IMG/VR virus record: IMGVR_UViG_3300038417_000475
Coordinates: 1-64,000 of that record
Direction: 5' to 3' (one strand)
Origin: a virus
DNA: 64,000 bases
A program made the translations under genes and the position numbers. Of the stretch, positions 7,353 to 58,234 are shown piece by piece. The notes below the pieces were generated by a model that worked only from the letters and a program-made list of their open reading frames with translations, ran no database searches and had not been told where the DNA came from. Numbering within the stretch: position 1 is the first letter of the stretch; the number at the start of each line of letters is the position of its first letter.

Positions 7353-8144
7353 ATGGAAAGAAAGCTCGGATGGCGTAAAGACAAGTTCGATGCCAGGGAT
7401 TACCTTCATTCTACGGCCTTGGTGGTCCCGCCCAGCGCCAATAACCAGGCGTATATTCCCTCGATAAGAGACCAGGGGCAGGAAGGCGCCTGCGTTGGCT
7501 TTGGCATCGGAGGCACTATCACTGCCGTACTGAAACAACTGGGCATCTACGTCGAATGGGTTTCGCCCCGGTATATCTACAACGGTGCCCGCTATATGGA
7601 AGGCACTCTGACGCAGGACTGCGGCTGCGAGCCTGGCGATGCTCTGGCCTGGTCAAAGAAAATGGGCGTCCTGCTCGAGCATTTCTGGCCCTATGTGGAT
7701 GTTCCGCTGGATACCAGTGCCCCATCGAGCAAGAGAGAAAAGGAAGCCGTCAAATACCCCAAGTTTACCTATACCCGTGTGGTAGACGGGCCCAACGGTA
7801 TCTGTTCGGCTCTGGCTGCAGGGCACATAGTCTCGATAGGAACTCCCTGGCCTGACAAATGGATGGATCCACCTAATGGGACTCTACCCGAGGTGAAAAG
7901 CTCTGATTTCGGGCAAGAGGGGCACGAGACATACCTCTTCGGCTATGATAAGACTCTGGTGACCCTCTACTCCACTGGTGTGTTCCCCTTCTTCGGGACA
8001 AATTCCTGGAGTACTGCCTGGGGTAACAAGGGGCTTTACACCATGCCATCCTCAGCCTTTGAGGTCATGAAGCAGATAGGCGGTTATGATGCGTACATCA
8101 TAACCTTCAATAAACCCAAGAAGAAGTGCCTCGGAATCTTCTAA
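7353..8144 (+). CDS. Papain-like (C1) cysteine peptidase
   Basis: 263 aa, full-length C1A-type fold without a visible propeptide. Gln41 and Cys47 sit in RDQGQEGACVGF (oxyanion Gln and nucleophile), His191 in GHETYLFGYD, and Asn217 in GTNSWSTAWG, giving the complete papain triad. Short domains of this type occur on phages and in archaea, where they may process virion proteins or act as hydrolases; which applies here is not shown. No signal peptide is evident. Good RBS (AGAAGGGAAGG). Confidence 0.9.
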   Translation: MERKLGWRKDKFDARDYLHSTALVVPPSANNQAYIPSIRDQGQEGACVGFGIGGTITAVLKQLGIYVEWVSPRYIYNGARYMEGTLTQDCGCEPGDALAWSKKMGVLLEHFWPYVDVPLDTSAPSSKREKEAVKYPKFTYTRVVDGPNGICSALAAGHIVSIGTPWPDKWMDPPNGTLPEVKSSDFGQEGHETYLFGYDKTLVTLYSTGVFPFFGTNSWSTAWGNKGLYTMPSSAFEVMKQIGGYDAYIITFNKPKKKCLGIF

Positions 8145-9153: not shown

Positions 9154-9771
9154 ATGCCGACAATCTATCTGGACAAACTGGATCCCGAGTCCGAGCTATT
9201 GAGACGTTTGACGTTCCCGGGATACTCAGGCAGAAAATTCCAGGTAGAGCTGACAGAGACGATCACCTTTAGCGGTACACAGTGGGCGGGCGGCTCCAAA
9301 ACTGACTACCGCATTGTTCAGCTCGACGGAATGAAAGTCGTGGGGATCCCGGAAGCGCCCTTCCTGCAACGGTCGCCGCTTCATGAGGGTCAGTACCCGT
9401 TGCCGCCTGGCTATGTGGTGGTAAGCCATCACATATCCTGCGGGAAAGATCTGGGGCTGACCTTTGCCGTCAACCCCAGAGAGTCCTTCAAACTGCTGCC
9501 CAAGCCAAGCGAGGAGCTGACCCGGGCGCAGAAGATAGTGCTGGCGGCAACCGGCTACAAATCGAGCTATGGGGGCATAAAGGACCTCAGATTTCATGAA
9601 GCCCATGAAAAGACAGGGATCTCGCGCCAGGAATATGACCAGGCCAAAGAGTCGCTGATAAAGAAGGGTCTGTTCAATAAAGCCGGCGCCATTACACCCC
9701 AGGGGAGAAACGCGATCGGGAACCAAAGGCTGGAGGATTTTAGGGAGATGACAAGGGGGAGGTATGGGTAG
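9154..9771 (+). CDS. Protein ending in EMTRGRYG tag
   Basis: 205 aa. N-terminal two thirds beta-rich with no recognised motif; residues about 130-190 (RAQKIVLAATGYKSSYGG to LFNKAGAITPQGRNAI) have the helix pattern of a winged helix. It ends EMTRGRYG, one of five copies of a C-terminal tag in 9.1-15.6 kb. The tag codons also provide the GGGGGAGG used by the next gene. Function unknown. Confidence 0.55.
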   Translation: MPTIYLDKLDPESELLRRLTFPGYSGRKFQVELTETITFSGTQWAGGSKTDYRIVQLDGMKVVGIPEAPFLQRSPLHEGQYPLPPGYVVVSHHISCGKDLGLTFAVNPRESFKLLPKPSEELTRAQKIVLAATGYKSSYGGIKDLRFHEAHEKTGISRQEYDQAKESLIKKGLFNKAGAITPQGRNAIGNQRLEDFREMTRGRYG

Positions 9772-11245
9772 AATAACTGAATTCCGCAATGGCATGAGGT
9801 TCAACCCTCCGATTCTGCCGGATGCCTTCTGGCTGGCCTATAACTCTATCGCTCGAGCTGCCGTAAATGCCAAACCGCCGCCCTCTGTCATCTTAAGCAA
9901 AGAGAAGTCCCAGGAGGTCTACCGGGCATGGGTAGCTGAACTTCAAAAGTATGTGGCTGCCAACGGTAAATTCACCAAGTTCGAGGTGATCTATGTTCCC
10001 TTCTCGCCCCCTCCGTTCTTCTGGGATTACAAGTGCGGAAAGTGCAGGTGGTGGATCCAGGGTGGCTGCCAGCTCGTCGACGGAACAATCAACGCGAGGG
10101 GCTGGTGTGCCGTTCCTGGTACTCTAACCCCTACCCATAGAGGAGTATTACCCATCGAGGAAGTAATTCCAGGTGATATAGGATATTCGTTGAATGGGGC
10201 GTTCCATTCAAATAAAATAGCCGCTATCTCCATGAGAGAATACAGTGGGAGAATGTATAAACTGCAGGCAAACTACCTGTTGCCTCTCACTGTTACTCCT
10301 GAGCATATTCTATATGTTCAAAGGTTTATCTCCTCTACTACTAATAAAAGAAAGACTGGATATGCCATGAAATTGTTTTCTCCTGAGGAGATGACAGCTG
10401 AGAGGTTATACCAGAATGTCATGGCTGGTGACAAGTATCGTATTTTACAGCCTTATCCTCTAAATGAGGAATCATCATTAGGTTTGGATGGAATACTTGC
10501 CAGGTTCCTGGGGATATTTATGGCAGAAGCACATATATTGTATCGTGATGATGAACCAGCTGGAGCCGGATTTGACTTTGGAGAAGAACCCGAGCTAATT
10601 AACTTTATTGAGGAAGTCTGTAGCTCTAGATTCAGTGCTAACAGTACAGTTAGGCCTAATTCAAGAGGTGGACTCAACGTTAGAGTACATTCCAGTAAGC
10701 TAGCTAAATTCATCCTCAAGTACTTTAATGGTTCTCATTCAGCTAATGGTAAATCTCTTAGCAACGACGTTCTTTATCTCCCAAGAAGTCTACAGAGAGA
10801 TCTTTTACAGGGGATGCTAATTGGAGATGGCCATACAAGGGGTACCAATAATCAGCTGGGATCCTCTTCTCCTTCGTTGATATGGCAATCTGAAATCATC
10901 TTATGGAGAAGTGGTACCACTGGAAGCATGGGCAAAATGAGAGAAGGTGGCGACAAAGTAATAATCTCTGGGAGAGAGGTTAATAGAGGTCCATTTTATA
11001 GATTGTCTTGGTATCCCAAGCCCAATGGAGGAAGATTAATCCAAGAAGAACCTGGCCTATTATCATTTATGGTGAGGAAGATTGCTCCGACGCAATATAG
11101 TGGACCAGTACACGACCTATCAATGATTAATGAACCAAATTTCATTACACTTGGTGGTCTTAGTCATAACTGCGCCATCTGGCTGCCACCGGACAGCTAT
11201 AAACCGTTTACCTGGCCGCAGGAGCTGCTGGCTGGGAATTGGTGA
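9764..11245 (+). CDS. HiPIP-like Cys protein interrupted by intein
   Basis: 493 aa precursor. The extein (residues 1-114 plus 470-493) would be 138 aa after splicing. It carries CGKCRWWIQGGCQLVDG and, once joined, ARGWCAIWLP: spacing C-x2-C-x7-C, then GWC, resembling high-potential iron-sulfur proteins and short phage relatives. The intein starts at Cys115, exactly the fourth Cys ligand, and ends HN469 before Cys470. An uninterrupted gene would therefore code a 4Fe4S-type cluster site that only forms after splicing. The start ATG 9764 overlaps the previous gene. Extein start and tag-family neighbours suggest expression with the 9-16 kb block. Confidence 0.75.
   Translation: MGRITEFRNGMRFNPPILPDAFWLAYNSIARAAVNAKPPPSVILSKEKSQEVYRAWVAELQKYVAANGKFTKFEVIYVPFSPPPFFWDYKCGKCRWWIQGGCQLVDGTINARGWCAVPGTLTPTHRGVLPIEEVIPGDIGYSLNGAFHSNKIAAISMREYSGRMYKLQANYLLPLTVTPEHILYVQRFISSTTNKRKTGYAMKLFSPEEMTAERLYQNVMAGDKYRILQPYPLNEESSLGLDGILARFLGIFMAEAHILYRDDEPAGAGFDFGEEPELINFIEEVCSSRFSANSTVRPNSRGGLNVRVHSSKLAKFILKYFNGSHSANGKSLSNDVLYLPRSLQRDLLQGMLIGDGHTRGTNNQLGSSSPSLIWQSEIILWRSGTTGSMGKMREGGDKVIISGREVNRGPFYRLSWYPKPNGGRLIQEEPGLLSFMVRKIAPTQYSGPVHDLSMINEPNFITLGGLSHNCAIWLPPDSYKPFTWPQELLAGNW
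10106..11170 (+). mobile_element. Intein with LAGLIDADG endonuclease
   Basis: Residues 115-469 of the host protein, 355 aa. Block A (Cys115, TLTPTHRGVLPIEEVIPGD), block B-like TVTPEHILYV, two dodecapeptide motifs (LGIFMAEAH and GMLIGDGHTRG) and the C-terminal LSHN|C splice end are all present, so both splicing and homing domains look intact. Its DNA is visibly richer in A/T than the flanks, a sign of recent acquisition. Confidence 0.85.
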
Positions 11246-11255
11246 GAGGTGAGAT

Positions 11256-11369
11256 ATGGCCAAGAAGAAGGGCGATACCAAGAAAGACATCGACCGGAGT
11301 ATGAAGGATAGTGGAGCCGGCAGCATAGCCAAGGCCGATGCCGAGTTCCTGAAAAAGCGGAAGAAATGA
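11256..11369 (+). CDS. Small basic protein, 37 aa
   Basis: MAKKKGDTKKDIDRSM then a Lys/Arg-rich end. GAGAGGTGAG precedes the ATG and its stop overlaps the next gene's ATG (ATGA at 11366). Highly charged; function unknown. The context and RBS support a real gene. Confidence 0.55.
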   Translation: MAKKKGDTKKDIDRSMKDSGAGSIAKADAEFLKKRKK

Positions 11370-12727
11370 ACATCCTCTCTCCGGAGCAGATCGAGACCTA
11401 TAAGAAGCAGGGATGGAGGGTATTCCAGCCTGGCTTTGACGTCTCGTACAAAAGTCAATGGAATACTCCGTGGTTCATCATCCGGGAGTTCTTCCAGAAC
11501 GCCTTGGACGAACATGACGAGGCTGGAATAAGTGCGAAACCACGCCTGGCGGGTAGCAGCAAAGGAGTGGTGATCGAAGACCGGGGCAGAGGGCTGGGCG
11601 CCGAGAGCTTGATTCTCCGCGAGACAAAGGGCGGGGGAGATCTCCGCGGCCGGTTTGGAGAAGGGCTGAAATTTGCCTGCATATCCGCAGTCAGGCAAGG
11701 CTTTACCCCTGTCATTGAAAGCGCGAATGTCACTATCAGGGCATATGCGTCCCCTAGCGTCATGGGCAAAGCCCAGCTGAATCTCTTGACTTTCCTTTTC
11801 AAAGAGACTGCTGGATCCAGGTTAGGTACTCTGGTCACCATCGAGGGCTATCATGGCACCCTCTACACCGAGAATTTCACCACGTTTCTGGGGAGTCCCA
11901 TAGCGTGGAAAGATACCCAGATAGGGCGTTTTGTCAGAAGAGAAGCGGTCTACAGTAACCCGAAGGGCAATCTCTACGTCGGCGATATCTTCATCAAGAA
12001 GTTCGACAAACCAACATCCTACAGCTATAACCTCTGGGGGATAGATCTGAACCCCGACCGGATCTCGGAAATAAGGGTCCGTGATGTTTTAGACGGTATG
12101 GCCCGGCCATGGACTACAATCAAGAGCAGGGAACTGGCTACCAGTCTTATACGCGCAGTAACGGATGTTAGGTCGCAGGAAGCGGAGATATACTGGTCTG
12201 CCGGTCCCTCCCGAGCCGTGTTGTTGGCTGCCTGGCAGCAGCTATTCGGCCAGCGGGCTGTCCTCTCTACCGGCGAGCGTGACTCAAAACTGGCGGAAGG
12301 ATACGGCTATCGTGTTATGGGGAAGAGCTGGACATCGAATATCAGGTCACTGTTTAGATATAATGTCCCGGATGCCTCGGATATAGTAGAGGCTCGAGTA
12401 AAAGAGCTTTCTGCTCCCACCATTATTCCCTCCACCAGGCTTACCCAGAAGCAGCACCAGAACTTGGATATCATACGTTTTCTAACCGCTAACTGCCCAT
12501 CATGTAGTTATGAGGGCAGGAAACCCGTGATCGAGGTCGCAAGCATACGACCGGATCCACGGATTCAGGAGGTTGTGCTAGGGCTATGCGATTATGACGG
12601 GGGTAAAATCTACGTTGTACCTTCAGTATTGAACACTGAAGAAGACACGATAGCTACTTACTACCACGAGATGGGACACTGGGTAGGCGGCGAGATAGCT
12701 ATTGACGGCTCGATGAGCCATACCTAA
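11366..12727 (+). CDS. GHKL ATPase domain joined to HEXXH motif
   Basis: 453 aa to the first stop. The N-terminal 150 residues have the Bergerat ATPase signature: REFFQNALDEHDEAG (E41, N45), VIEDRGRGLG (D72, G-box) and GRFGEGLKFACIS. Such domains bind ATP in Hsp90, MutL, histidine kinases and Morc proteins. The C-terminal end has YYHEMGHWVGGE (H434, E435, H438), a zincin-type HEXXH. I know of no standard family with this pairing. The frame stops at TAA 12725 but stays open for 57 more codons ending in the EMTKG tag, so the gene may be truncated, read through, or wrongly sequenced there. Confidence 0.75.
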   Translation: MNILSPEQIETYKKQGWRVFQPGFDVSYKSQWNTPWFIIREFFQNALDEHDEAGISAKPRLAGSSKGVVIEDRGRGLGAESLILRETKGGGDLRGRFGEGLKFACISAVRQGFTPVIESANVTIRAYASPSVMGKAQLNLLTFLFKETAGSRLGTLVTIEGYHGTLYTENFTTFLGSPIAWKDTQIGRFVRREAVYSNPKGNLYVGDIFIKKFDKPTSYSYNLWGIDLNPDRISEIRVRDVLDGMARPWTTIKSRELATSLIRAVTDVRSQEAEIYWSAGPSRAVLLAAWQQLFGQRAVLSTGERDSKLAEGYGYRVMGKSWTSNIRSLFRYNVPDASDIVEARVKELSAPTIIPSTRLTQKQHQNLDIIRFLTANCPSCSYEGRKPVIEVASIRPDPRIQEVVLGLCDYDGGKIYVVPSVLNTEEDTIATYYHEMGHWVGGEIAIDGSMSHT

Positions 12728-12901
12728 GCAGTGCAGAGAATAGCTGCCCGGATATCGCTCCTGATGAGGCAAAAGACGGCTGATATTGATAGGATCTTGG
12801 GCGTTAAAAAGGCCCCTGCGCCCGCAGCTGCCCCGGCCTTTGTCCAGGCAAGCCAGGCGCAGCGATCGAAGCCTGAGATGACTAAGGGCAGGTATAGGTA
12901 G
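12728..12901 (+). pseudogene. In-frame 3' continuation of the GHKL/zincin gene
   Basis: After TAA 12725 the same frame encodes a helix (AVQRIAARISLLMRQKTADI), an Ala/Pro linker and a final KPEMTKGRYR before TAG at 12899-12901. This tag is shared with neighbours, so the segment was clearly once, or still is, the C-terminus of the upstream protein. No RBS or good start is seen for an independent gene. Confidence 0.6.
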
Positions 12902-12912
12902 ATGGAGGCGAT

Positions 12913-13311
12913 ATGAGAGATCTGACTGCGAATGAGAATGAACTGCTCAAGCATGTGAGTAAGATGGGACACTGGCAGAGCTATGAGATCGTTAGAACTG
13001 AGTCAAAGGAATACGACTTGTACATCAAAGGTGCGTCTAAAGATAGCTCCAGTGCTACGAAGGGCACCACCTTCATATCCTGGCTGCCACTGGCTACTCT
13101 CTCTGTTATGAACTGGGCAGCCCCGGATATCTGGGAACTGAATAATGCTTATGGGGTGAAGGGCTTTACTCCACCTGGAGGGCCTGATTGGAGTGGAATC
13201 CGGGATAGTTCCACAGAGACGATCTGGAAGATGTTTGATATAGCCCTCTGGCGGCTGGGGATCAAGAAACGTAAAGGGCCAGAAATGACTAAGGGCCACT
13301 TCGGGAGGTAA
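12913..13311 (+). CDS. Protein ending in EMTKGHFGR tag
   Basis: 132 aa, GGAGGCGAT before the ATG. No known domain; aromatic motifs FISWLPLATLSVMNW and TPPGGPDWSG are notable. It ends GPEMTKGHFGR. The codons of the tag contain GGGAGG, the RBS for the next gene. Confidence 0.55.
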   Translation: MRDLTANENELLKHVSKMGHWQSYEIVRTESKEYDLYIKGASKDSSSATKGTTFISWLPLATLSVMNWAAPDIWELNNAYGVKGFTPPGGPDWSGIRDSSTETIWKMFDIALWRLGIKKRKGPEMTKGHFGR

Positions 13312-13313
13312 GA

Positions 13314-13802
13314 ATGGGAAGAAGCTCGAGAGATATTGATATCCCTGCTGCCATAAAGCTGGCTAGGACAGGCAGGCTGGAATCCTGGTCGACGGGCTTG
13401 CTGCAGCGGATAGACGAGAGGAAGGTTGTCCGGGCAGAGCTGTTTGATGATGGGAAGGTGGCCCTCTATTACCCCGACCCCAAGAGCCCCCATGGGTACC
13501 GGGGGAAAGGGGACAGAGAGCTTTTCCAGGAATTCATTTTGCCGAAGAAGAAATTCACTTATACCTATGTGCCCTGGAACAGCGCGATCCCTGGCCACCC
13601 GGACCTCCCCTTCGTTATGTCCCTGGGTACCATCCGGACCGTGCCGGAGAATTACTATGTAGCCGATGTCTACAAGGATCTTTCCCTCATGTTCGACTCA
13701 AGGCTGGAAGCGGCGACGCGGAATGTCGACAGGGCCTCCGTTAGGAAATGGTGGGAGCAGAACAAGCCCGAAATGACGAAGGGCAAGATGGGGAAGAAAT
13801 GA
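13314..13802 (+). CDS. Protein ending in EMTKGKMGKK tag
   Basis: 162 aa, starting two bases after the previous stop. It has a beta-rich centre (VRAELFDDGKVALYYPDP) and ends KPEMTKGKMGKK. No family recognised. Part of the tagged run of genes. Confidence 0.55.
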   Translation: MGRSSRDIDIPAAIKLARTGRLESWSTGLLQRIDERKVVRAELFDDGKVALYYPDPKSPHGYRGKGDRELFQEFILPKKKFTYTYVPWNSAIPGHPDLPFVMSLGTIRTVPENYYVADVYKDLSLMFDSRLEAATRNVDRASVRKWWEQNKPEMTKGKMGKK

Positions 13803-13839
13803 AGCCCGATATCTTCAGGCAAAGCGCGGGAAGCCACTG

Positions 13840-14343
13840 ATGAGCTATAACTCGAAAAATGTCAGGGCCAACGTGTGCCACAAGATTTACATGGCCCTTC
13901 TGACCGAAGAGAGGCGCAGTCAACCCGGTATGGCCTTGTCTCAGCAACAGAGTGAAGATATAAGGCTCGATACCGAAAGCGTCACGGATCTCATCGAGCA
14001 GGAATACAGCAGCAAGGGGGGAGCTGGCGCCCTCTGGCTGGACCGCATGCTCAAAGATCTCAACTGGCTGGCCGATATCCAGGAAAAGGCCTGGGCGGTT
14101 CAAAAGGAAAAGAAAGCGGCAGCGAAAAACTGGCTCTGGTCCCAACAGGGCTGGGCCACTGAAGCTCAAGCCAAGGCCGTTGCCACCAGGCTCCGGGTGG
14201 AGAATTACGTGGTGGAACCAGGCTATGAAAACAAAGCCTGGAGGCTGAAGGTAAGGATCGATACCATTCCGGAGAGCACCCGCCAGGCGCCCCATGCCGT
14301 GCTGTGGGACGCAATAAAGAAAGCTGAGGGGAAATCTCGATGA
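13840..14343 (+). CDS. Protein of 167 aa, unknown
   Basis: Helical, charged; a Trp-rich centre (LDRMLKDLNWLADIQEKAWA). It lacks the EMTKG tag, ending KKAEGKSR. ATGA overlap with the next gene. No family recognised. A short 13-codon frame at 13799-13840 before it is not called. Confidence 0.5.
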   Translation: MSYNSKNVRANVCHKIYMALLTEERRSQPGMALSQQQSEDIRLDTESVTDLIEQEYSSKGGAGALWLDRMLKDLNWLADIQEKAWAVQKEKKAAAKNWLWSQQGWATEAQAKAVATRLRVENYVVEPGYENKAWRLKVRIDTIPESTRQAPHAVLWDAIKKAEGKSR

Positions 14344-14567
14344 GCGGGAAAGGGCGCATTGTCGGAGTCGGTAAAACCTCGCCGGTTTGTCTGCCGGCAC
14401 GCTGTAGCCATACAGACCATCTTTTCGGCAAGGCTATGAGGTGCCCGCTACCCTGCGCCCCCTTCAAGGCGGTCTGCCCGGCTCATTCCCTCCCGGAGGC
14501 CCCGAGACCCGACGAGTTTGCCCGGGCAATCCGGATGTGCCTGGAACAGGAGAGGAGAAAATTCTGA
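14340..14567 (+). CDS. Small Cys-rich protein, unknown
   Basis: 75 aa, with CLPARCSHTDH, CPLPC and CPAH motifs and a helical end with Arg. It starts in the previous stop (ATGA) and its own stop overlaps the next ATG (TGATG). Metal binding is likely from Cys spacing; nothing more can be said. Confidence 0.5.
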   Translation: MSGKGRIVGVGKTSPVCLPARCSHTDHLFGKAMRCPLPCAPFKAVCPAHSLPEAPRPDEFARAIRMCLEQERRKF

Positions 14568-14998
14568 TGCCTAGAATCTTTCAGGAGCCAAACTATGGCG
14601 TAACAGAGAGGTCCCTGGAGTGGGTGCGCCGTTATAAGTCTGATTTGGGCCCTCTCTTCCGGATTCGTTGCTTTATCCATCCCCACCGGGTTGCTGGGCT
14701 TGAAGGTGACCAGTGGGTAGAGTTTGAAGATCAAGCCGGCAATAAGATAATCGCTACCGGTTTCGGATGGGGATATCCGGGGACTGGACCAGCCGGCCTG
14801 GCCAAGATCCTGCGTGAATTGGGAATTCAAGGTCAAATTATTACCACGGCGCGTTGGCTTACTCAAAATAGCGAGTGGAGAATCGATATTAAGGAGAATA
14901 CTGCCACCGTGAAACTCAAACAGGAGATGACCGGAGGGGAGAGCAGCTGGGAGATCATGGGTTATGTCAGGTATTCGGCAGGAGATTGCAGAAGATGA
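14567..14998 (+). CDS. Protein of 143 aa, unknown
   Basis: Start at ATG 14567 with AGGAGAGGAG upstream; the same frame is open back to 14441 but that part overlaps the previous gene. Beta-rich (IRCFIHPHRVAGLEGDQWVE), ending YSAGDCRR. No family recognised. Coupled to the next gene by ATGA. Confidence 0.55.
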   Translation: MPRIFQEPNYGVTERSLEWVRRYKSDLGPLFRIRCFIHPHRVAGLEGDQWVEFEDQAGNKIIATGFGWGYPGTGPAGLAKILRELGIQGQIITTARWLTQNSEWRIDIKENTATVKLKQEMTGGESSWEIMGYVRYSAGDCRR

Positions 14999-15324
14999 CT
15001 GTCGAGATCCGGAAAAGACAGGTAGGGGTTACCGACCGCTGGATAATCGAGGCGGTCGATGGCAAGCAGGTCCGGAACGAGCTGGATATCGATTTCGCCC
15101 TGGCCGGCAATCCTGCAGTCAAAAAGTACATCCCTCCGGACCAGCTCTGGGTGGAGATGATGTCAGACAAGACGGAGTGGCCCTGTTTCATTGTCCACGA
15201 GGACTGGGAGGATGGCCGCGTAGACCAGGGTATGCCGTATGAAGTAGCGCACGAGGAAGCCAACGTCCTGGAGAGACTGTGCCGGCAAGGGAAAATGGAG
15301 CTGACGGTATTCAGGCCGGGATAA
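14995..15324 (+). CDS. Protein of 109 aa, unknown
   Basis: Beta strands at the N-terminus (VEIRKRQVGVTDRWIIEAVD), then a helix near the end. ATG 14995 overlaps the previous stop; an earlier TTG at 14986 is possible. No family recognised. Confidence 0.5.
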   Translation: MTVEIRKRQVGVTDRWIIEAVDGKQVRNELDIDFALAGNPAVKKYIPPDQLWVEMMSDKTEWPCFIVHEDWEDGRVDQGMPYEVAHEEANVLERLCRQGKMELTVFRPG

Positions 15325-15334
15325 GGAGGGAGAA

Positions 15335-15634
15335 ATGGCCCAATATTGCATGTTCAAGCAACCTGAGGTTATTGCTCGGCAGAAGGAATGGGAAAAGAAG
15401 ACGGATGACGAGATCCGCCGCCAGATGGAGAAGCTGAATCTTGACAAACCTTCGGAAGAGGAGCGATACAAGGCGGCAGTAAACGTCTTGATCTCTCGGG
15501 GATGGGGTGTAGAAGTGAAGCGGCGGCCCTCGTCGTATAAGCACAAAACTGGCGGCATGACCATACACCACGAAGGATTTGTGCTGGCTTTCCACCGGCC
15601 AAAGGTGGAGATGACCAAGGGACATAATAAGTAA
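15335..15634 (+). CDS. Protein ending in EMTKGHNK tag
   Basis: 99 aa with AAGGAGGGAG upstream. The N-terminal half is a charged helix (KEWEKKTDDEIRRQMEKL); the C-terminal half has MTIHHEGFVLAFHRP, closely like TTVHHEGFVLASYP in the minus-strand protein at 37179-37421. It ends VEMTKGHNK, the last tag copy seen. Confidence 0.6.
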   Translation: MAQYCMFKQPEVIARQKEWEKKTDDEIRRQMEKLNLDKPSEEERYKAAVNVLISRGWGVEVKRRPSSYKHKTGGMTIHHEGFVLAFHRPKVEMTKGHNK

Positions 15635-21207: not shown

Positions 21208-21379
21208 ACCTGCGTGCTCAGAGGAAACTCTGCCAGAAGATGCACGCCTGTGTAGGGCAGGGTACGTCTGGACAAGGCCAGAAGATCAGAAGGTGATGGA
21301 TCAGTGTCCTGACTGCCAGTTCTTCCCTGAGAACTGTGCGGAGAGCAAACAGACACCCTGCCAGTATTGGGCAACGTAA
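21146..21379 (+). CDS. Cys-rich small protein
   Basis: 77 aa with AAAGGGGG before the ATG. CTHCQGTIEPAC, then CPDCQFFPENC and CQYW suggest two metal sites. It overlaps the previous frame by 62 bases, unusual here; the Cys pattern makes this the stronger of the two calls. Confidence 0.55.
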   Translation: MPIYVVADREQTCTHCQGTIEPACSEETLPEDARLCRAGYVWTRPEDQKVMDQCPDCQFFPENCAESKQTPCQYWAT

Positions 21380-21435
21380 GCAACCTCATGTCGAGTGACA
21401 GAGGAATAGATAGAGAAGGAGCAGGAGTTGAGAGA

Positions 21436-22341
21436 ATGAAAGCATGGCGAAACACGGCAATCGTTATGGGAGTTATGACCATCCCTGTGAAGCTGTACTC
21501 TGCTACAAGCGATCACGATATGGAGCGGCATAATCTCCACGCCAAAGACGGCGGAAGGGCAAAGCAGGGAAGCAAATTCTGTAGCAAGTGCAAGGCCGAT
21601 TTAGATGATACGAACACGGTGAAGGGCTACGAGGTCGGCAAGGATAGAGATATCATCCTGACTCCGCAGGAGCTTGCCACCATCAGCCTCAAGTCGGCCA
21701 AGGCAGTTGAGATCGTGGAGTTTACCGCCAGTGACAAGGTTGACCCACGGATGCCTGAGAATCACTACTTCGTTGCACCAGAGGACATGGGGAAGAAGGG
21801 CTTCTCCATCCTGCTGGAGACGATGCAGGACACGGGGCTGTTTGCCATCGGCAGGGTAGTCTTCAGTGAGACCAAGGAGACCCTTGTCCTGATGCGACCC
21901 TTCGGCCACGTCCTGATGCTGCACACGCTGGCATGGGCTGATGAGCTGAGGGATGCCTCAGAGCTTACCGATACCACCGTGGCAATCTCCGACAAAGAGC
22001 GTGAGCTTGGCAAGATGCTGGTGGAAGTTATGGTCGGCGATGGTGACATTAGCAAGTTCCACGACCAGTATCAGGAACAGCTCAGGGCTTTGATCGAGAC
22101 GAAGGGGTTGGGCGGTGTCATCGAAGTCCAGCCAGAACGTACTGAGGAACAGGTGGCGGCTGTGGATGCAGCGGAGCAGCTCCTGGCGAGCATTGTGGCG
22201 GTACAGAAGAGTCAGAAGAGCAAGGGCACAGTTCTCCGGGCTGGCGAAGGGGAAGTCCCCACGGAGTTGGAGCCTGAGTTGTCGCCCAAGCCGAAGAAAA
22301 CGGCCAAGGCGAAACGCTCTGCCAAAACAGTAGCAGCTTAG
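21436..22341 (+). CDS. ku: Bacterial Ku protein
   Basis: About 301 aa, the usual size for bacterial Ku. The N-terminus (WRNTAIVMGVMTIPVKLYSA) and the central barrel (HNLHAKDGG, KYCSKC-like KFCSKCKADL, VKGYEVGKDRDIILT, DKVDPRMPENHYFVAPE, VLMRPFGHVLMLHTL) match the Ku core. Ku binds DNA ends and recruits ligase in non-homologous end joining. A Lys/Ala-rich tail ends the protein, as in many bacterial Kus. Start at ATG 21436; the frame opens 23 codons earlier but lacks a good RBS. The DNA ligase gene is 330 bases downstream in the same unit, so this is a portable end-joining pair, as known in some mycobacteriophages. Confidence 0.9.
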   Translation: MKAWRNTAIVMGVMTIPVKLYSATSDHDMERHNLHAKDGGRAKQGSKFCSKCKADLDDTNTVKGYEVGKDRDIILTPQELATISLKSAKAVEIVEFTASDKVDPRMPENHYFVAPEDMGKKGFSILLETMQDTGLFAIGRVVFSETKETLVLMRPFGHVLMLHTLAWADELRDASELTDTTVAISDKERELGKMLVEVMVGDGDISKFHDQYQEQLRALIETKGLGGVIEVQPERTEEQVAAVDAAEQLLASIVAVQKSQKSKGTVLRAGEGEVPTELEPELSPKPKKTAKAKRSAKTVAA

Positions 22342-22501: not shown

Positions 22502-22675
22502 ATGGAAATACCTGTCGTAGTGCAGGCTTCCAGTCTCGCCTATCCTCTGGAAGAGGAAGACTTCTTTGCGGAAGAGCGACTCCGCAAGGAGATGGGAAAT
22601 CAGGAAGCCCGCCATCTGGATGATGGCGATGAGTGGCCTTGCCAGCATCTTTCTACCAATGGGGGTGGGCTATGA
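22502..22675 (+). CDS. Small acidic protein, 57 aa
   Basis: MEIPVVVQASSLAYPLEEED, then EERLRKEMGNQEARHLDDGD and CQHLSTNGGGL. AAAGGGGG lies upstream and the stop overlaps the ligase start (ATGA at 22672). The coupling to ligase suggests co-translation; function unknown. Confidence 0.55.
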   Translation: MEIPVVVQASSLAYPLEEEDFFAEERLRKEMGNQEARHLDDGDEWPCQHLSTNGGGL

Positions 22676-23574
22676 ATCTACCGATGAAGTGCCAGAAGCA
22701 GAAGAAACCCTTCAGCTCCAGCCGACATCTCTTTGAGCCAAAGGTGGACGGTTGGCGGTTGAGGATGGTCACCAAGACAGAGTATGGTCAGGTCGAGCTG
22801 GATGGAGAGGTGGCTGTCCTGGATGCCCAGGGCGTGCCCCGCCTTCACCTTGTCCAGCAAAGAGGACAGGACGATCCCCTGTTTCTCAAGACAGCCATGC
22901 GGGATTACCCCGCCCTGTTCTTTGGGTTCGATATCCTTCAGTGTGGGGGCAGGGGTGATCTACACCTGACTCCCCTCAAGACTCGAAAACGGATACTGAC
23001 GGATATTTGGCCTGCTCTGAGGAAGAACGGCGTTCATCTCTACAGCAAGAACGGGCATGATATAACAGGCCGCTTCCCTGAGCTGGGCGATCCCCGGAAT
23101 TGCAAGCTCCTGTCCTGGGTTGAGGGAGATGGGGAAGCACTTTTCGAGAAACTCTGTCTTGCTGGTTGGGAAGGCGTGGTGGGCAAAGAGCTGGAGTCGC
23201 CATACCTCTACGACAGCAGGACGAAGCTCTGGATCGCCTCCAAGAGGCCGAAGATCGAGGGGGATTTCGTCATCTGCGGTGCTACCCTGGGCAAGGGAAA
23301 CCGTGAGGGCTTGGTCGGCTCCCTGATACTCGGAGAGCCAACGTCTAGGGGACTGATCTACATGGGAGAGGCCGGCACAGGACTCGGCTTCGCCGATCTG
23401 CGAAGGTTGACCGAGAAGCTGTCCCGCAAGGATGCCTGTCCCTTTACTGACAGGCCGAAGATCGACGGATTCTGGTTCTGGTCTGCGCCCACAGTCAAGG
23501 TGGAGATCGCCTATGTCGAGCGCACCAAGGATAACAAGCTGCGGGAGCCGGTGATAAAGCGCCCGCCGATGTGA
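22672..23574 (+). CDS. ATP-dependent DNA ligase (LigD-type catalytic core)
   Basis: 300 aa: adenylation plus OB domain, without the polymerase or nuclease parts of full LigD. Motif I FEPKVDGWRL (Lys that carries AMP), motif III FFGFDIL, motif IV EGVVGKE and motif V WIASKRPKIEGDFVI are present in order. Start ATG 22672, preceded by GGGGGTGGG and overlapping the small upstream gene. With Ku nearby it should seal double-strand breaks, for example to circularise or repair element DNA. Confidence 0.9.
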   Translation: MNLPMKCQKQKKPFSSSRHLFEPKVDGWRLRMVTKTEYGQVELDGEVAVLDAQGVPRLHLVQQRGQDDPLFLKTAMRDYPALFFGFDILQCGGRGDLHLTPLKTRKRILTDIWPALRKNGVHLYSKNGHDITGRFPELGDPRNCKLLSWVEGDGEALFEKLCLAGWEGVVGKELESPYLYDSRTKLWIASKRPKIEGDFVICGATLGKGNREGLVGSLILGEPTSRGLIYMGEAGTGLGFADLRRLTEKLSRKDACPFTDRPKIDGFWFWSAPTVKVEIAYVERTKDNKLREPVIKRPPM

Positions 23575-36161: not shown

Positions 36162-36553
36162 CTACGCGGGATGATTGGGAGTCTGCTGCCGGCAGAAAAT
36201 GCGCCAAGTGCGGTCGGGAGGCTTACCGCCTGGTGAAAGGTATCTGTCTGCCCTGCTCCGGAGAGGAAGCCGATGAGGTCCAGCTCCTACGGGCAGTCGT
36301 TGAACTAGGTAAAGAGCTATCCGATGAGGATATGAAAATTGTATGGGAGTGGAACAAGGAACATCAGGTCTTCCTGGAAAGTCTTCAGGAGATCGCTCGA
36401 GCGCAGCACCTTACGTTTAATCCCAAGCTACATCTCAAAGAGTGGATAATCAGGCGGGTGGCTGCCGGCAATTTCTGTTTCACCCCGGGGCGGGCGTGCC
36501 CATGTCCACAACCGTCCGCTGTTCGCTGCCCTCTTCTTGTCCCGGGCAAGTGA
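36158..36553 (+). CDS. Zinc-knuckle protein, 131 aa
   Basis: ATG 36158 overlaps the previous stop. CAKCGREAYRLVKGICLPCS is a zinc site; a helical middle follows. The last 74 bases overlap the end of the converging minus-strand gene, so one of the two C-termini may be wrong. Last plus-strand gene of the block. Confidence 0.5.
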   Translation: MTTRDDWESAAGRKCAKCGREAYRLVKGICLPCSGEEADEVQLLRAVVELGKELSDEDMKIVWEWNKEHQVFLESLQEIARAQHLTFNPKLHLKEWIIRRVAAGNFCFTPGRACPCPQPSAVRCPLLVPGK

Positions 36554-36968
36554 TAATCAGGACTTGCTCTTCCCTGTCTATTTCCAGCTTGCAGACTTGC
36601 CCATCATATTTGGCCGTGGGTACCTGCTCCAGCTTCTCGCTCTCGACAAAAGGGAATCCTTCCTCTGTCGTCACGTCAATCAGATCAAGCCCAACATCGC
36701 CAGGGATATTGGACTCAAAGCGTCCCTGTACCACCATCTCTTTGATCGGGCCGCAGGGTTTGCAACCCTCACCGACAAAAAGCCGTATCGCCTTCTTCGC
36801 CATCGCTTCCTCCTGATAGACTGCCGGGACGCAGTTCGTCATTCTATCAACTAATTCCCCCCGTGTCATACCCTTATGGACCCCGCAGCGGACTGATGCT
36901 GCCGCGATTGCTCTCTGTTGCCATGTTTGAGGATAACTCGAAGGGGTGGCCCTCACAATCATCGTCAT
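36480..36968 (-). CDS. Fusion: HKGM-motif protein and CxxC thioredoxin-like domain
   Basis: 162 aa. Residues 20-50 (AIAAASVRCGVHKGMTRGEL, then NCVPA) match the end of the protein at 37179-37421. The rest (KKAIRLFVGEGCKPCGPIKE, then VGLDLIDVT) resembles a thioredoxin/glutaredoxin with a CKPC active site. The join at QEEA is encoded by AGGAGGAAGCG, a perfect RBS before ATG 36803, so the second part can also be made alone. Stop codon loss between two genes is the simple explanation. Confidence 0.6.
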   Translation of the reverse strand: MTMIVRATPSSYPQTWQQRAIAAASVRCGVHKGMTRGELVDRMTNCVPAVYQEEAMAKKAIRLFVGEGCKPCGPIKEMVVQGRFESNIPGDVGLDLIDVTTEEGFPFVESEKLEQVPTAKYDGQVCKLEIDREEQVLIITCPGQEEGSEQRTVVDMGTPAPG

Positions 36969-37178: not shown

Positions 37179-37421
37179 CTAGAACTTGCCGGGTACGCAG
37201 TCGGTCATCGCGGTGACCAGAGCGCCTCTGGACATACCCTTATGGATGCCGCACGCCTTAGCCGCGTCCTTCACTTTCTTTTGCTGTGAAGTCATAGGAT
37301 AAGGCGCCGGATAGGAAGCCAGCACAAACCCCTCATGGTGCACCGTGGTGATGCTCTCCAGTCTATGGGACTTGGGCCGTCTTTTCAGGTATCCGAAGGA
37401 CTTCAGGTTCTTTAGGATCAT
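37179..37421 (-). CDS. HHEGFVLA/HKGM-motif protein
   Basis: 80 aa, GGGAGGTACC before the ATG. TTVHHEGFVLASYP is shared with the tagged protein at 15335; KACGIHKGMSRGALVTAMTD with CVPGKF is shared with the fusion protein downstream. A small mosaic of element-specific modules. Driven by the promoter at 37506-37535. Confidence 0.55.
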   Translation of the reverse strand: MILKNLKSFGYLKRRPKSHRLESITTVHHEGFVLASYPAPYPMTSQQKKVKDAAKACGIHKGMSRGALVTAMTDCVPGKF

Positions 37422-49236: not shown

Positions 49237-49683
49237 CTAGAGACTGCCTCTTGCCCCCTGCATGGCCACAGACTGAGTGAGATGAGCCTGGGTGAAGGCA
49301 CTCAGGCCGGGCACCGCAGTACGGAGACCTTCAGGCGCGGCGGCTATTAACTCAGCAGGACTCTCTTTCACCTTGAGCCCATCTCCTATAGCCTTAGCTT
49401 TCTGTCCCGTCAGCTGATTCAGCTTCAGGTTGGCCGTGGATTCCCCCTTCGCGAGCAGAGAAGAAACCTTCGGCACTCCGGGGATATTCTCCTCAACCTT
49501 GGAGACGATAGGGGCTACCCTGGGCAAACGCAGGCCTGAAATACTTGCCGTACCTCCCAGGTTAGGTACCTTGCCGGCGATCTTGGACATGATGCCCGAT
49601 ATACTGGGCGCTCCATTGGGCAGGATCGATTCAATCTTCTGCGGGATTACGACGGGCTTTAGTAAAGCTGCTTGAACACCCAT
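49237..49683 (-). CDS. Pro-rich protein with shared C-terminal tail (copy 1)
   Basis: 148 aa. The first 100 residues are Pro/Ile/Lys low-complexity (GAPSISGIMSKIAGKVPNLG). The last 35 residues (PEGLRTAVPGLSAFTQAHLT, then QSVAMQGARGSL) are nearly identical to the end of the protein at 52998-53390. The tail looks like an assembly or anchoring module. Confidence 0.6.
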   Translation of the reverse strand: MGVQAALLKPVVIPQKIESILPNGAPSISGIMSKIAGKVPNLGGTASISGLRLPRVAPIVSKVEENIPGVPKVSSLLAKGESTANLKLNQLTGQKAKAIGDGLKVKESPAELIAAAPEGLRTAVPGLSAFTQAHLTQSVAMQGARGSL

Positions 49684-50220: not shown

Positions 50221-52539
50221 TTACATTTGATTGTCGATATACGTTTTCAGAAGCGAATAATTTATAAGTCCCCAACCGTAATCATTGCTCTTGGCTGAGG
50301 CATAATCGCCATATATCGACATCGCAGCCTTGATATGCTCCGTGGTCAGGACCTTCCCCTTTTTACGGGCATACTGGATCGCCAGGGCTGTCACGTATGC
50401 GGCATGGGGTGTGGCCATTGACGTGCCGGAAATCGCGGCAAGCTGCGGAGGTCCGTCTCCAAGCTGCATGGCTGCGATATATCCGTTGGAAGTCGAAAGG
50501 ATATCCACACCCGGAGCCACCACGTCGGGCTTGATGAATCCGGCTTTCGTGGGGCCTCGAGAGGAGAAGCTGGCTATGTTTCCGTGGATATCCACAGCTC
50601 CGACAGTCAACGCATCCGGTGAACAGCCGGGGCCTCCTACAGTCATCTGGCCAGGGCCGCTGTTGCCGGCAGCGATACAACAGATGATCCCAAGTTGCGT
50701 CATGGCGGTGATGGCCTGGCATTCCGGGTCATTCAGGTAATCATCGGGTTCGTCCCCTCCCAAAGACATCGAGATGATATCGGCTTTCCAGTGCAGAGCG
50801 TTCATCAGGCCGGCCAGTATCCAGCTTGCCATCCCTACGCCGATCCCGCCGCCCAGGACTTTGAACGGACGAACCTCTGCTCCCGGAGCTCCGCCCTTGA
50901 GCAACGCTCCTCGCGCAGGCCCGGCGAGAACCTTAAAAGGCCTCCCGCCGATGCAGGTGTTACACCAGGTATTGTGGATAAAAGCCATACCTTGTTTACC
51001 AGCAAGGTAATAAGGGCTTTCTGGGTCAAGGGTGAAATCATAGAGGAACCCCTTGAAGTCTATCTCCTCAACAGATTTGGGCAATAGGTAAGGGGCTGTT
51101 CTGTGAACTTCAGTGTAGAGAGGCCTTTTCAGCTTCAGGTAGGGAATCAACGCCTCGGTCATCCGGGTAAATCCTGCATCTACAGCAGATACTTGGTAAC
51201 AAACCTTCTTCCCTTTACCAGAAGGTTTCTGTTTTGTAAACCGTCCTCCAAAACCTAGAACACCGAACAGGCTAACGATTTGCTGTGCCAGTTGCCTTGA
51301 AGTAGTGCTAACCCTGCATCTAGCACGATCAGGGTCGAAATGACCATCACCATCTATGATCCCGGCCAGCACTGCCAGGAGTACATTCGTGGGTTGTTTT
51401 AAGAGCCTCTCCGGTATGGTATTCTCTTTCCGTCTTAGACCTAGCGCAATGAACTCTCTTTTCAATCCTGATACCTCAATGCTTCTACTCTTCTTGCGTT
51501 TTTTGGGAGTCCAAGCACAATAATGATAGCCGAGCTGCTTCAGATATGTCTCAATAGCAGGCCCTTCGTCATGGTGTAGAGAAAGGTTCACGGCACTGTG
51601 ATGGAAACAGCCCTCAGCTATGAACAGCCCTGCCAAGTAGGCCAGATCTGTATTCACAGTCTGTACGAAAGGCAGATTGATGATCTGCTCATTCGTAGCC
51701 AGACCGTAATTTCTATGGGACTGAATCAGGTCAGAAGCTCTCACATCCCTGTATCTTTTGCACCGTGGCTCATAGATTTTGAATGGATGCCACGGAGTTG
51801 TCACAAATTCAGATGTCCCGGCTTTCACTTTTATCAATTTGCCGTCGAAAGGAATCTTGTGTACAGCCAAGACCCTTACAGGTTTTCTGAAGCCGATCGT
51901 CCATGTGGGATCTACGGGTATTTTGGTAAATCCCAGTTCACTCTGGACCTCTGGAACCTTCAAATTCTCATAGAGGTCTTGGAATCGCACAAGGCCACAG
52001 AACGTAGTATAGACAAAGGCTTCTCCCTCAATGCAACCATGGCCGACCTCATCGAACATAAAAGGCTGGCCGGGTACCGATGATTTACCATGTCCGAAGT
52101 ATCCCTGGACCGCGAAATCCAAGGCTGTACCGGTATCGAGCACTGCAACTTTTACACCTTTGCCGGTGATACCGTCCGCGGCAGCTACGTCCGCTCCCAC
52201 CATCTGCCCGCTCACCGATGTCGGGATCCTCTCGTGCGAGGAGTCGGAGGCGGCATAAGCCATGGCTTTCGCCGGCCCCGTGATGGGGTTGGAGAGGAAG
52301 AGGTTGATGAACTTGGAAAACTTCTGATCTACCGGCATGGTGATGCGGATGGCCCGTATCTGCTCCGGTTTCACGTTGAGCACATAAGGCACAGCTTCTA
52401 TCGCCGCTACCTGGTTAGGCTGGATATCCACCTTCACAAAATTGAAATCGAGAGGAGCAGGGAATATACCCATCTTGGTCAGAGAAATGTTGACCTCGGC
52501 AAGATGAATAGGGTCTACCTGGACAAGGTATTTAGCCAT
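50221..52539 (-). CDS. Subtilisin-like serine protease with intein at catalytic His
   Basis: 772 aa precursor, 417 aa after splicing. Asp136 in VAVLDTGTAL, His167 in VGHG, oxyanion Asn626 in AAGNSGPG, Ser707 in GTSMATPHA: a full S8 catalytic set. The first 110 residues would be an inhibitory propeptide-like domain. The intein lies between GHG168 and Thr524, inside the GHGT active-site motif, so the precursor is catalytically dead until splicing. After the intein, WCNTCIGG shows an unusual Cys pair where GHGTHVAG is normal. Phage subtilases are thought to process virion proteins or act on the host; the neighbouring genes suggest the former. Confidence 0.9.
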   Translation of the reverse strand: MAKYLVQVDPIHLAEVNISLTKMGIFPAPLDFNFVKVDIQPNQVAAIEAVPYVLNVKPEQIRAIRITMPVDQKFSKFINLFLSNPITGPAKAMAYAASDSSHERIPTSVSGQMVGADVAAADGITGKGVKVAVLDTGTALDFAVQGYFGHGKSSVPGQPFMFDEVGHGCIEGEAFVYTTFCGLVRFQDLYENLKVPEVQSELGFTKIPVDPTWTIGFRKPVRVLAVHKIPFDGKLIKVKAGTSEFVTTPWHPFKIYEPRCKRYRDVRASDLIQSHRNYGLATNEQIINLPFVQTVNTDLAYLAGLFIAEGCFHHSAVNLSLHHDEGPAIETYLKQLGYHYCAWTPKKRKKSRSIEVSGLKREFIALGLRRKENTIPERLLKQPTNVLLAVLAGIIDGDGHFDPDRARCRVSTTSRQLAQQIVSLFGVLGFGGRFTKQKPSGKGKKVCYQVSAVDAGFTRMTEALIPYLKLKRPLYTEVHRTAPYLLPKSVEEIDFKGFLYDFTLDPESPYYLAGKQGMAFIHNTWCNTCIGGRPFKVLAGPARGALLKGGAPGAEVRPFKVLGGGIGVGMASWILAGLMNALHWKADIISMSLGGDEPDDYLNDPECQAITAMTQLGIICCIAAGNSGPGQMTVGGPGCSPDALTVGAVDIHGNIASFSSRGPTKAGFIKPDVVAPGVDILSTSNGYIAAMQLGDGPPQLAAISGTSMATPHAAYVTALAIQYARKKGKVLTTEHIKAAMSIYGDYASAKSNDYGWGLINYSLLKTYIDNQM
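50971..52035 (-). mobile_element. Intein with LAGLIDADG endonuclease
   Basis: Residues 169-523, 355 aa. Cys169 start (GEAFVYTTF, block A), TTPWHPFKIY block B-like region, dodecapeptide motifs AGLFIAEGCF and AGIIDGDGHF, and an FIHN|T end. Extein +1 residue is Thr. Same length as the intein at 10106 but unlike it in sequence. Confidence 0.85.
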
Positions 52540-52997: not shown

Positions 52998-53390
52998 TTA
53001 TAAGCTACCTCTTGCCCCTTGCATATCTACCGACTGAGTCAGATGCGTTGTGGTGAAGGCGCTCAAGCCCGGCACCGCAGTACGCAGACCTTCAGGCACC
53101 GACTCTATCAGCTCGGGCGCGGCCTCTGTTACCTCAGGGGTTTGTATCTCAGGGGCTGCCGCAGCAACATTTGCTCGTATTTCGGAAATATCATTGATCA
53201 TGCCGGGAGTCGGCAACCGCTTTTTCGGCATCTTCCGGATATCGGTTATCATGCTGGTCTTTCCAACGGTAGGCAGATCAGGAAGCTGACCGGCCACACG
53301 GAGCAGTAATGGGGACACCCGAGGAAGAGCAGTGCCCTGCTCAACTTTTGAAATCCGAGAGGCAAATGTCTTTAACGGATTCATCTTCAT
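52998..53390 (-). CDS. Protein with shared C-terminal tail (copy 2)
   Basis: 130 aa. Same end as the 49237 protein: PEGLRTAVPGLSAFTTTHLT, QSVDMQGARGSL. N-terminal part differs (Pro/Lys-rich). Codons differ at synonymous positions, so the tail is conserved as protein. Confidence 0.6.
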   Translation of the reverse strand: MKMNPLKTFASRISKVEQGTALPRVSPLLLRVAGQLPDLPTVGKTSMITDIRKMPKKRLPTPGMINDISEIRANVAAAAPEIQTPEVTEAAPELIESVPEGLRTAVPGLSAFTTTHLTQSVDMQGARGSL

Positions 53391-55416: not shown

Positions 55417-56358
55417 CTACTCTATGACGCTCTGCGCTACGGAGCCCGTAATGAATTTATGGTCGATCTCCGGGCAGGCCATCAGGTCACTCGGGAAATC
55501 ATTGCCTTCCAGGTAGGGCAGGAACGGCTCTGCCAGCCTGTGGAATACAGCTTCGATCGCCGACTTCTTAAAATCCTCAGGGTGGACCTGGATATCGACA
55601 TACATGGCCTCTCCCATCCAGTTGCAGACCTCCTGGATGGTGGGAGGCTTGGGGTTTGTCAGCCAGTATTTGCCGGCGAGCTGCTGTTTGACGATGTAAT
55701 CCGCCACCGCGTCGACAGGGACCAGGTTGATATGCCCGTCCGGATTGCCTTTGACCCTGAACTGCGGTGTCAGAACAGGCAAACGCAACGTACCTTCGAT
55801 GGCCCGCCTCACAATCTCAGCCCTTTCATGGACTGCGCAGATTCCCCGGGCAAACTGGTAGAGGGCGCCCATCGAAGGCTTGATGATATTCATGCAGGGG
55901 ATGATCACCCCCGGCTTGAAGACAGCCTTGAAGAGCCAGGTCTGGGCATCGACCGCCTTCTCCGCCGCTTTCTTGGAGATCTCGTAGGAATTGCGCCCTA
56001 TGGTGTACGCCGTCCCAACGTAGAAAAGTTGCGATACGTTATAGCGTTTGCAGAAGTCGATTACATGAATAGTGCCATCGTAATTCGTCTTCCAGACCCG
56101 GTCTTCGTGCTTCGTTCCCAGGTTGATATCCGCCGCCAGGTGGTAAAGAGCGTCAAATCTGCGGACGTTAGCCTCGTCCTCTCTGACTCCCAGCAGATTC
56201 TCCACAATATCGCCATGGATGATATCCATATCCGGAAAGAGCTTCTTCGTTTTATCCACGTCGCGGGCTATGAGAGTCACGAGATCACCGCGCTCGATGA
56301 GTCGCGGTACCACTTCCTGCCCGAGCTGCCCCGATGCGCCTGTCACCAGAATCTTCAT
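55417..56358 (-). CDS. SDR-type NAD(P)-dependent epimerase/dehydratase
   Basis: 313 aa. TGASGQLGQEVV (Rossmann nucleotide site), ALYHLAADINLG, NYDGTIHVIDFC and the catalytic YEISK pair are the extended SDR pattern, full length. Acts on a nucleotide sugar, steroid or polyketide-derived substrate; context favours lipid or polyketide. Start at ATG 56358, after GGAGG; an alternative GTG at 56370 overlaps that RBS. Confidence 0.8.
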   Translation of the reverse strand: MKILVTGASGQLGQEVVPRLIERGDLVTLIARDVDKTKKLFPDMDIIHGDIVENLLGVREDEANVRRFDALYHLAADINLGTKHEDRVWKTNYDGTIHVIDFCKRYNVSQLFYVGTAYTIGRNSYEISKKAAEKAVDAQTWLFKAVFKPGVIIPCMNIIKPSMGALYQFARGICAVHERAEIVRRAIEGTLRLPVLTPQFRVKGNPDGHINLVPVDAVADYIVKQQLAGKYWLTNPKPPTIQEVCNWMGEAMYVDIQVHPEDFKKSAIEAVFHRLAEPFLPYLEGNDFPSDLMACPEIDHKFITGSVAQSVIE

Positions 56359-56379
56359 CATTACCTCCACAGTTCCTTA

Positions 56380-57085: not shown

Positions 57086-58234
57086 TCAAGCCCAGTAGAG
57101 CAAAATTCCATACGTTTTGAAGCCGGCGCCCATTGTGAGCACCAGGCCCCAGTCGCCCGGCTGGGCCTGCTCTTTCGCCAGGCGCCCGATTGAAGCAATG
57201 GTAGCAGAACTCTGGTTACCCTGCTGCCTCAGGATTTGCCTCGAGTAAGCCAGCTTCTCCTCCGGGATCTTCAGGCGATCGCGGATATTGTCCAGGACTT
57301 TGACCCCGCCCGGGTGAATAATAAGGTGTTTGATGTCGCGCAGCGTCATCCCCGGGACCTGTTCCAGGATTCTGTTTACCACCCTCTCGACCAGCACAGG
57401 TGCCACCTTCGGCACATCCTTGTCCAGCTTCACCTTCAGCCGGCCGTCCACCCAGTCAAAGCCAAGATAGTCAATATAGCGGCGGTCGAACTCTTCGGCA
57501 AAAGCCCAGATCCAGGGGTGCTTCGGGTTGTCATCCTGCCCGATCAAACAGGCACAGGCCCCGTCGCTGAAAATGGCATTGGCCACCGTATTCTCCAGGT
57601 CTTTCTCCGGAGCCGGGTAGAACGTGGCGGTGCAGATCTCCGCCGTTATTACCAGCGCGGGGTAGCCCGTCTGCATGAAATGGTCATGGGCCCTGCGGAT
57701 AGCCGGAGCTCCGCCAACGCACCCGCCTCCGATCATATCGGTATGCTCAATATCAGAGGGCAGCTTCAGCAGCATCGAATAAAAGTAACTCAGAGAGGGG
57801 CAGAGCAGCCGGGGTTGCGTTGTGGTAGCAAAGGTGATTGAGCCGATGTCCTTACGGATCTCTAAACCTTCGATGCACTGTAAGGCGGCTTCCAGCCCCA
57901 GGTTTACAGCACCCGCCTCATATTCCTGGCACATCTGCTCAAAGGTCATATTACGCAGCTTGCTGGGATGAATCCAGCACGGCCGCCGGTCGATCCCGGA
58001 ATTCTTGAAGATATTCCAGACCCGTTGAGACGTGTAGCCCAGGGCATCATATGCTTCCTTCTGGGTCACAAATGTCTTGGGGACTGCGGTACCCAGTGAG
58101 ATGATCTTGGCCCTCTTCGGCTTCCGATAATAGGCCGCCGAGCGTTGGGGGGCTGCCTCTTCCTGCCGTTTAATAGTTTCAGGAGTCCGGGTATCCGGAA
58201 AGCCGTTCAGGTCTGGTCTGGTTGCAATCATCAT
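57086..58234 (-). CDS. Type III polyketide synthase
   Basis: 382 aa, full length. Cys172 in GGGCVGGAPA, His307 in HPGGVKVLD and Asn340 in GNQSSAT form the chalcone-synthase-type triad; NAIFSDGACACLIG is also typical. Type III PKSs are homodimeric enzymes that condense malonyl-CoA on acyl-CoA to make alkylresorcinols, pyrones or phloroglucinols. An extended, partly disordered N-terminus of about 40 residues precedes. Stop overlaps the next gene region closely. This is an unusual gene for a phage-like element. Confidence 0.9.
   Translation of the reverse strand: MMIATRPDLNGFPDTRTPETIKRQEEAAPQRSAAYYRKPKRAKIISLGTAVPKTFVTQKEAYDALGYTSQRVWNIFKNSGIDRRPCWIHPSKLRNMTFEQMCQEYEAGAVNLGLEAALQCIEGLEIRKDIGSITFATTTQPRLLCPSLSYFYSMLLKLPSDIEHTDMIGGGCVGGAPAIRRAHDHFMQTGYPALVITAEICTATFYPAPEKDLENTVANAIFSDGACACLIGQDDNPKHPWIWAFAEEFDRRYIDYLGFDWVDGRLKVKLDKDVPKVAPVLVERVVNRILEQVPGMTLRDIKHLIIHPGGVKVLDNIRDRLKIPEEKLAYSRQILRQQGNQSSATIASIGRLAKEQAQPGDWGLVLTMGAGFKTYGILLYWA

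Follow-up and report, generated by a model that had tools for sequence, protein, structure and literature searches.

A C-terminal EMT[KR]G peptide shared by five otherwise unrelated proteins in one block of an orphan 85-kb mobile element or virus

Five genes lying within 6.5 kb of one co-directional block end in the same short peptide, which follows the consensus (K)P-E-M-T-[KR]-G and is continued by three to five mostly basic residues up to the free C-terminus. Its terminal position, its presence on more proteins than chance would allow and a constraint acting on the peptide itself follow from the data below, and we consider it an even prospect that the tag is a short linear docking motif that would gather the five proteins on one common partner. 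The window analysed here comprises 64,000 nt, namely positions 1-64,000 of a record of 85,151 bp. A six-frame scan of the window finds exactly five copies of [DE]MT[KR]G, all of them on the plus strand and 8-10 codons before a stop, and together with the list of open reading frames it confirms the five tags where an earlier note, made from the letters of the sequence, had placed them (Table 1). No further copies exist elsewhere in the record, in which the DNA pattern of the K-form gives four forward, no reverse and no control matches; a loosened search for partial tags over all C-termini added a single MTRG, which is not credible. The description of the carriers as five neighbouring proteins holds in so far as they form one block, but they are not consecutive: five untagged genes (at 9764, 13840, 14340, 14567 and 14986) are interspersed among them, and because of these the tag cannot be attributed to the region alone.

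Table 1. Coordinates of the tagged proteins, their tags and associated features.
Feature	Position	Strand	Description	Basis
Tagged protein 1	9154..9771	+	205 aa, ends EMTRGRYG	ORF
Tag 1	9745..9768	+	E M T R G R Y G (GAG ATG ACA AGG GGG AGG TAT GGG)	
GHKL/HATPase-like protein	11366..12727	+	453 aa as annotated; C-terminal HExxH (YYHEMGH)	phrog_6077 E 3.6e-15; HATPase_c E 0.078
In-frame TAA	12725..12727	+		distant homolog aligns across; sister contig identical here
In-frame continuation	12728..12901	+	last helix of zincin-like part, Ala/Pro linker, tag 2	codon score
Tag 2	12875..12898	+	E M T K G R Y R (GAG ATG ACT AAG GGC AGG TAT AGG)	
Tagged protein 3	12913..13311	+	132 aa, orphan, ends KGPEMTKGHFGR	ORF
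Tag 3	13282..13308	+	E M T K G H F G R	
Tagged protein 4	13314..13802	+	162 aa, orphan, ends NKPEMTKGKMGKK	ORF
Tag 4	13770..13799	+	E M T K G K M G K K	
Tagged protein 5	15335..15634	+	99 aa, ends PKVEMTKGHNK; untagged paralog at 37179-37421	ORF
Tag 5	15608..15631	+	E M T K G H N K	
Untagged paralog of protein 5	37179..37421	-	HHEGFVLA core shared; C-terminus is the CGIHKGMSRGALVTAMTDCVP module instead of the tag	BLASTP E 7e-5

Given the amino-acid composition of the element, the motif as stated is expected in the last 12 residues of 0.0013 genes, compared to five observed (Poisson P 2.6e-17). The post-hoc choice of the motif was allowed for by asking how many ends, in sets of shuffled C-termini, share their commonest 5-mer in a reduced alphabet: the motif is shared by five of 93 C-termini, in an approximate gene list called by a simple codon-score script of our own, and none of 5,000 shuffles reaches five (14 reach four). 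Likewise, in 1,000 draws of internal windows, used as a control, a 5-mer was never shared by five of them. A coincidence is refuted by these figures at the present level. So is its variant, in which the tag is the shadow of a peptide P[LF]VIS encoded on the other strand: the opposite strand, one base out of register, does show the same wobble pattern, but its codon score is negative in every antisense frame (15/15), in contrast to 5/5 positive sense frames. Antisense coding is thereby ruled out, and we leave coincidence and antisense reading together a negligible probability.

The shared feature resides in the peptide rather than in the nucleic acid. Compared between tags, the E, T and G codons have the same base at their synonymous third positions in 8 of 30 cases, where 10.9 would be expected under independent codon choice, and all four ACN codons are in use; the remaining tag positions are identical in 116 of 120 comparisons. 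Upstream of the tags the DNA shows background identity, and downstream it lies slightly above background, mostly owing to a few pairs and above all to tags 1 and 2, which are alike beyond the core (GRY, AGGTAT). Since synonymous sites are randomised while the other sites are nearly fixed and the flanks are at about background, what is shared is a peptide and neither a nucleic-acid element nor the trace of a recent duplication. The earlier note had deduced selection on the peptide from the synonymous variation, and the peptide-level constraint stands. However, the strand cannot be deduced from the wobble pattern by itself, which recurs on the opposite strand in a shifted frame, where the translation is P[LF]VIS; it is the codon scores that assign the tag to the plus strand.

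Two alternative explanations bear on these comparisons. On the one hand, the tag could be a nucleic-acid signal at gene ends, either an RNA operator or the ribosome-binding signal of the next gene, which is only incidentally translated. About 19-39 nt separate each tag from the nearest plausible start that follows (70 nt for tag 4 if the annotated start is taken), and in some cases the tail runs into a Shine-Dalgarno-like sequence of the next gene, an overlap that may explain the G/R-rich ends of the tags. Such a signal is nevertheless very improbable, given that variation is confined almost entirely to synonymous sites, with every ACN codon represented and flanks at about background. On the other hand, an old C-terminal segment could have been spread by recombination onto several genes and have drifted since without any function. 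The confinement of all five tags to 6.5 kb and the similarity of tags 1 and 2 past the core would suit such a shared ancestry; drift, however, would erase synonymous and other sites alike, whereas the former are saturated and nearly all of the latter are kept. We regard shared ancestry as the sole cause as quite unlikely.

Apart from their ends, the carriers have little in common. Pairwise BLASTP among the five proteins gives little beyond the tag itself, and the best match that includes protein bodies, between the genes at 12913 and 13314, has an E-value of about 0.05 in this five-protein database; the claim that the bodies are unrelated is thus borne out. Searches against PADLOC, NCBIfam and PDB sequences put a name to none of the tagged proteins, and proteins 3 and 4 belong to no Pfam, PHROG, NCBIfam or PADLOC family. 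Protein 1 possesses a C-terminal segment resembling a winged helix-turn-helix (residues 149-190; Pfam PF24409 wHTH-PRTase_assc, E 5.4e-5, below the curated cut-off), and a low-confidence model places helices at residues 145-191. A match of protein 1 to phage SaP7 (E 0.05) was judged to be due to chance. Proteins 4 and 1 were modelled without an alignment, and the models, with mean pLDDT of 39 and 46, were too poor for a fold search. In both of them the tail, including the tag residues, has pLDDT below 50, which is weak evidence for an added end in models as poor overall as these, the single-sequence model of protein 4 included.

Tag 2 requires separate consideration. As previously described, it is situated behind an in-frame stop codon (TAA, 12725-12727) that terminates a gene for a GHKL/HATPase-like protein with a zincin-like C-terminal part, and as annotated it is for this reason not on the finished protein. 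The read-through open reading frame would extend over 11366-12901, and the stretch behind the stop has a codon score of +4.4 in frame, compared to -17.4 and -13.2 in the other two frames. In a tblastn search of phages and plasmids the only useful match was a distant full-length homolog of this protein from Exiguobacterium phage vB_EalM-132 (E 3e-3), whose alignment to the read-through protein continues for 20 residues beyond the TAA and stops at residue 473, where the homolog itself ends. From the alignment across the stop together with the in-frame codon score it follows that the TAA most likely interrupts what was formerly one gene; it may represent either a nonsense mutation or a readthrough site. 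The Ala/Pro linker and tag 2 are extra relative to the phage homolog, and because the latter aligns across the stop and ends before them, tag 2 appears to be a terminal module added to a gene that was interrupted.

The same picture emerges from protein 5 and its untagged paralog. In these two cases with a comparable homolog, the ATPase protein and protein 5, the sequence comparisons present the tag as a detachable end module beyond the homologous region, and on the same grounds it is dispensable for these two folds, since untagged homologs exist. The earlier note had regarded the absence of tags from homologs as an argument against its proposal: two distant homologs are untagged, which strictly read touches upon that argument, and which is also what is expected for an added tag. 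The paralog of protein 5 displays a module of a different kind, CG[IV]HKGM[ST]RGxLVxxMT[DN]CVP, which is shared between the minus-strand genes at 36480-36968 and 37179-37421, N-terminal in one and C-terminal in the other.

The evidence for the tag comes from one element. The sole other carrier found, the sister contig IMGVR_UViG_3300018015_000425, is uninformative because it is 99.99% identical. We scanned IMG/VR with exact DNA patterns for KPEMTKG, for PEMTKG with both Lys codons and for an EMTKG..Y form, and about 85,000 species genomes for KPEMTKG; neither collection yielded an independent carrier of the tag, and beyond the sister contig only single, chance-like matches were obtained. As these patterns were exact and back-translated, altered tags are missed by the scans. 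None of 250 loci has two tagged C-termini, in a locus set that may omit the newest loci of the last scan. Homolog searches with the tagged proteins returned, among viral contigs, the sister contig only (three proteins) and nothing among genome contigs; no relatives were detected via the helicase of the element, and no close relative of the element was found either. In the literature searched we found no relevant mention of EMTKG.

The record is classed as a virus by IMG/VR, and it is an orphan 85-kb mobile element or virus. Its genes include an integrase, ParA- and ParB-like proteins, a DnaB N-domain, a UvrD-like helicase, Ku and a DNA ligase, besides a weak match to the beta-clamp. Capsid, portal and terminase families (PF05065, PF04860, PF03237, PF03354 and PF04466) have no match in the record, there is no structural PHROG for head or tail among the proteins scanned, and the encapsulin shell family PF04454, for which the control was positive in 3 of 14 genomes, is likewise without a match. 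It is possible that the element is a virus with unrecognised, highly diverged structural genes, a plasmid-like element or an incomplete contig.

These gene contents bear on an encapsidation tag, one of the functions suggested by the earlier note, under which the carriers would enter the virion and pass with it into the next host like the internal proteins of T4 or DarB of P1. Unrelated accessory proteins in a single block, among them an ATPase/zincin-like protein, would suit such a tag, phages are known to use short packaging signals at protein termini (PMC9024508), and the record is called a virus. The reading finds no support here, however, since none of the genes recognised encodes a capsid, portal, terminase or encapsulin, no structural PHROG is present among the scanned proteins, and the viral label stems from IMG/VR only. 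Moreover, the packaging signal is N-terminal in P1 and, according to PMC9024508, in the T4 system. Encapsidation is therefore, in our judgement, unlikely.

Comparison with described systems leads to a similar result. Like the capsid-targeting sequences of P1 (DarB) and T4 (internal proteins), EMTKG is a short terminal peptide that might lead dissimilar proteins of the same phage to a single place. Those sequences are N-terminal (PMC9024508), whereas all five tags lie 8-10 residues from the C-terminus, differ in sequence and occur in an element without recognised head genes, that is, without a capsid, portal or terminase of tailed phages. With the cargo-loading peptides of family 1 encapsulins the tag shares its C-terminal position, its shortness and its distribution over unrelated proteins; it differs both from the targeting-peptide consensus SDGSLGIGSLKRS (PMC8346489) and from the GSL core, and the record is devoid of a shell gene. 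Phage-encoded sorting of a set of proteins has been described in PMC11087766, in which the signal is a surface-exposed region and not, as in EMTKG, a shared terminal peptide. Sortase and PEP-CTERM signals consist of a motif followed by a transmembrane helix and a basic end, unlike the tag, behind which only three to five mostly polar or basic residues remain. By analogy, the tag would work like known terminal targeting peptides, yet it lacks the defining features of capsid-targeting sequences as well as of encapsulin peptides, and we file it under neither.

Alternatively, the tag may serve as a signal for processing or degradation: a protease, possibly the papain-like protein encoded at 7353-8144, would cut at or after EMT[KR]G, or the tag would be a degron that sets the lifetime of its carriers. 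This gene for a C1-type peptidase (Pfam E 9.9e-7) is located about 1 kb upstream and in the same direction, and the three to five variable residues behind each tag are compatible with a cut after Gly. The basic end of the tag, however, is unlike that of ssrA-type degrons, which are hydrophobic, and for a ubiquitin-like use of the exposed Gly there is no E1-like ThiF, as PF00899 has no match in the record, although an E1 of the host is possible. Conjugation through a C-terminal Gly in the manner of ubiquitin was lowered in rank for lack of this match, and the processing or degradation signal as a whole appears improbable to us.

The docking motif agrees with what the five proteins have in common, a terminal peptide under peptide-level constraint on otherwise unrelated bodies. 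A single receptor for all five, whether the element or its host encodes it, would bind the EMT[KR]G ends and would thereby bring the tagged proteins to the same place or into the same complex. Against this stand the failure to find a receptor candidate, the lack of an independent genome with the tag, the untagged homologs and the position of one tag behind a stop codon, as if it were no longer needed. A more far-reaching proposal would be a targeting system encoded by the element and not described before, in which EMT[KR]G sends unrelated accessory proteins to one structure, be it a particle, a compartment or a complex, by means of a dedicated receptor, and in which readthrough of the TAA possibly sets the share of tagged ATPase; we put this forward tentatively, as a possibility well short of even. 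The shared end would mark orphan proteins as working together, a relationship that their sequences alone do not reveal, and if the receptor exists, a mobile element would possess a new targeting system. Its present value is that of a precise, testable hypothesis rather than a demonstrated system, and a short, transplantable C-terminal peptide is easily tested on a reporter.

Several other genes of the element deserve mention. Ku (21367-22341, E 9e-37) and an ATP-dependent DNA ligase (22633-23574, E 3e-13) lie side by side on the plus strand and constitute an element-borne end-joining pair. The plus-strand gene at 9764-11245 encodes a small protein rich in Cys (CxxC) that is divided by an intein-like insert containing a LAGLIDADG-like domain (Pfam E 0.007); residues 115-470 match a region in Dmt of phage P1 and relatives. 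A second probable intein, a LAGLIDADG/Hom_end insert at about residues 294-450, is found in a subtilase on the minus strand (50221-52539; Peptidase_S8 E 8e-37). The same strand carries a chalcone/stilbene-synthase-like (type III PKS) gene (57086-58234) and an NAD-dependent epimerase-like gene (55417-56370), as well as a duplicated C-terminal segment (PEGLRTAVPGLSAFT..HLTQSV.MQGARGSL), the copies of which, at 49237-49683 and 53001-53135, are 76% identical over 45 residues.
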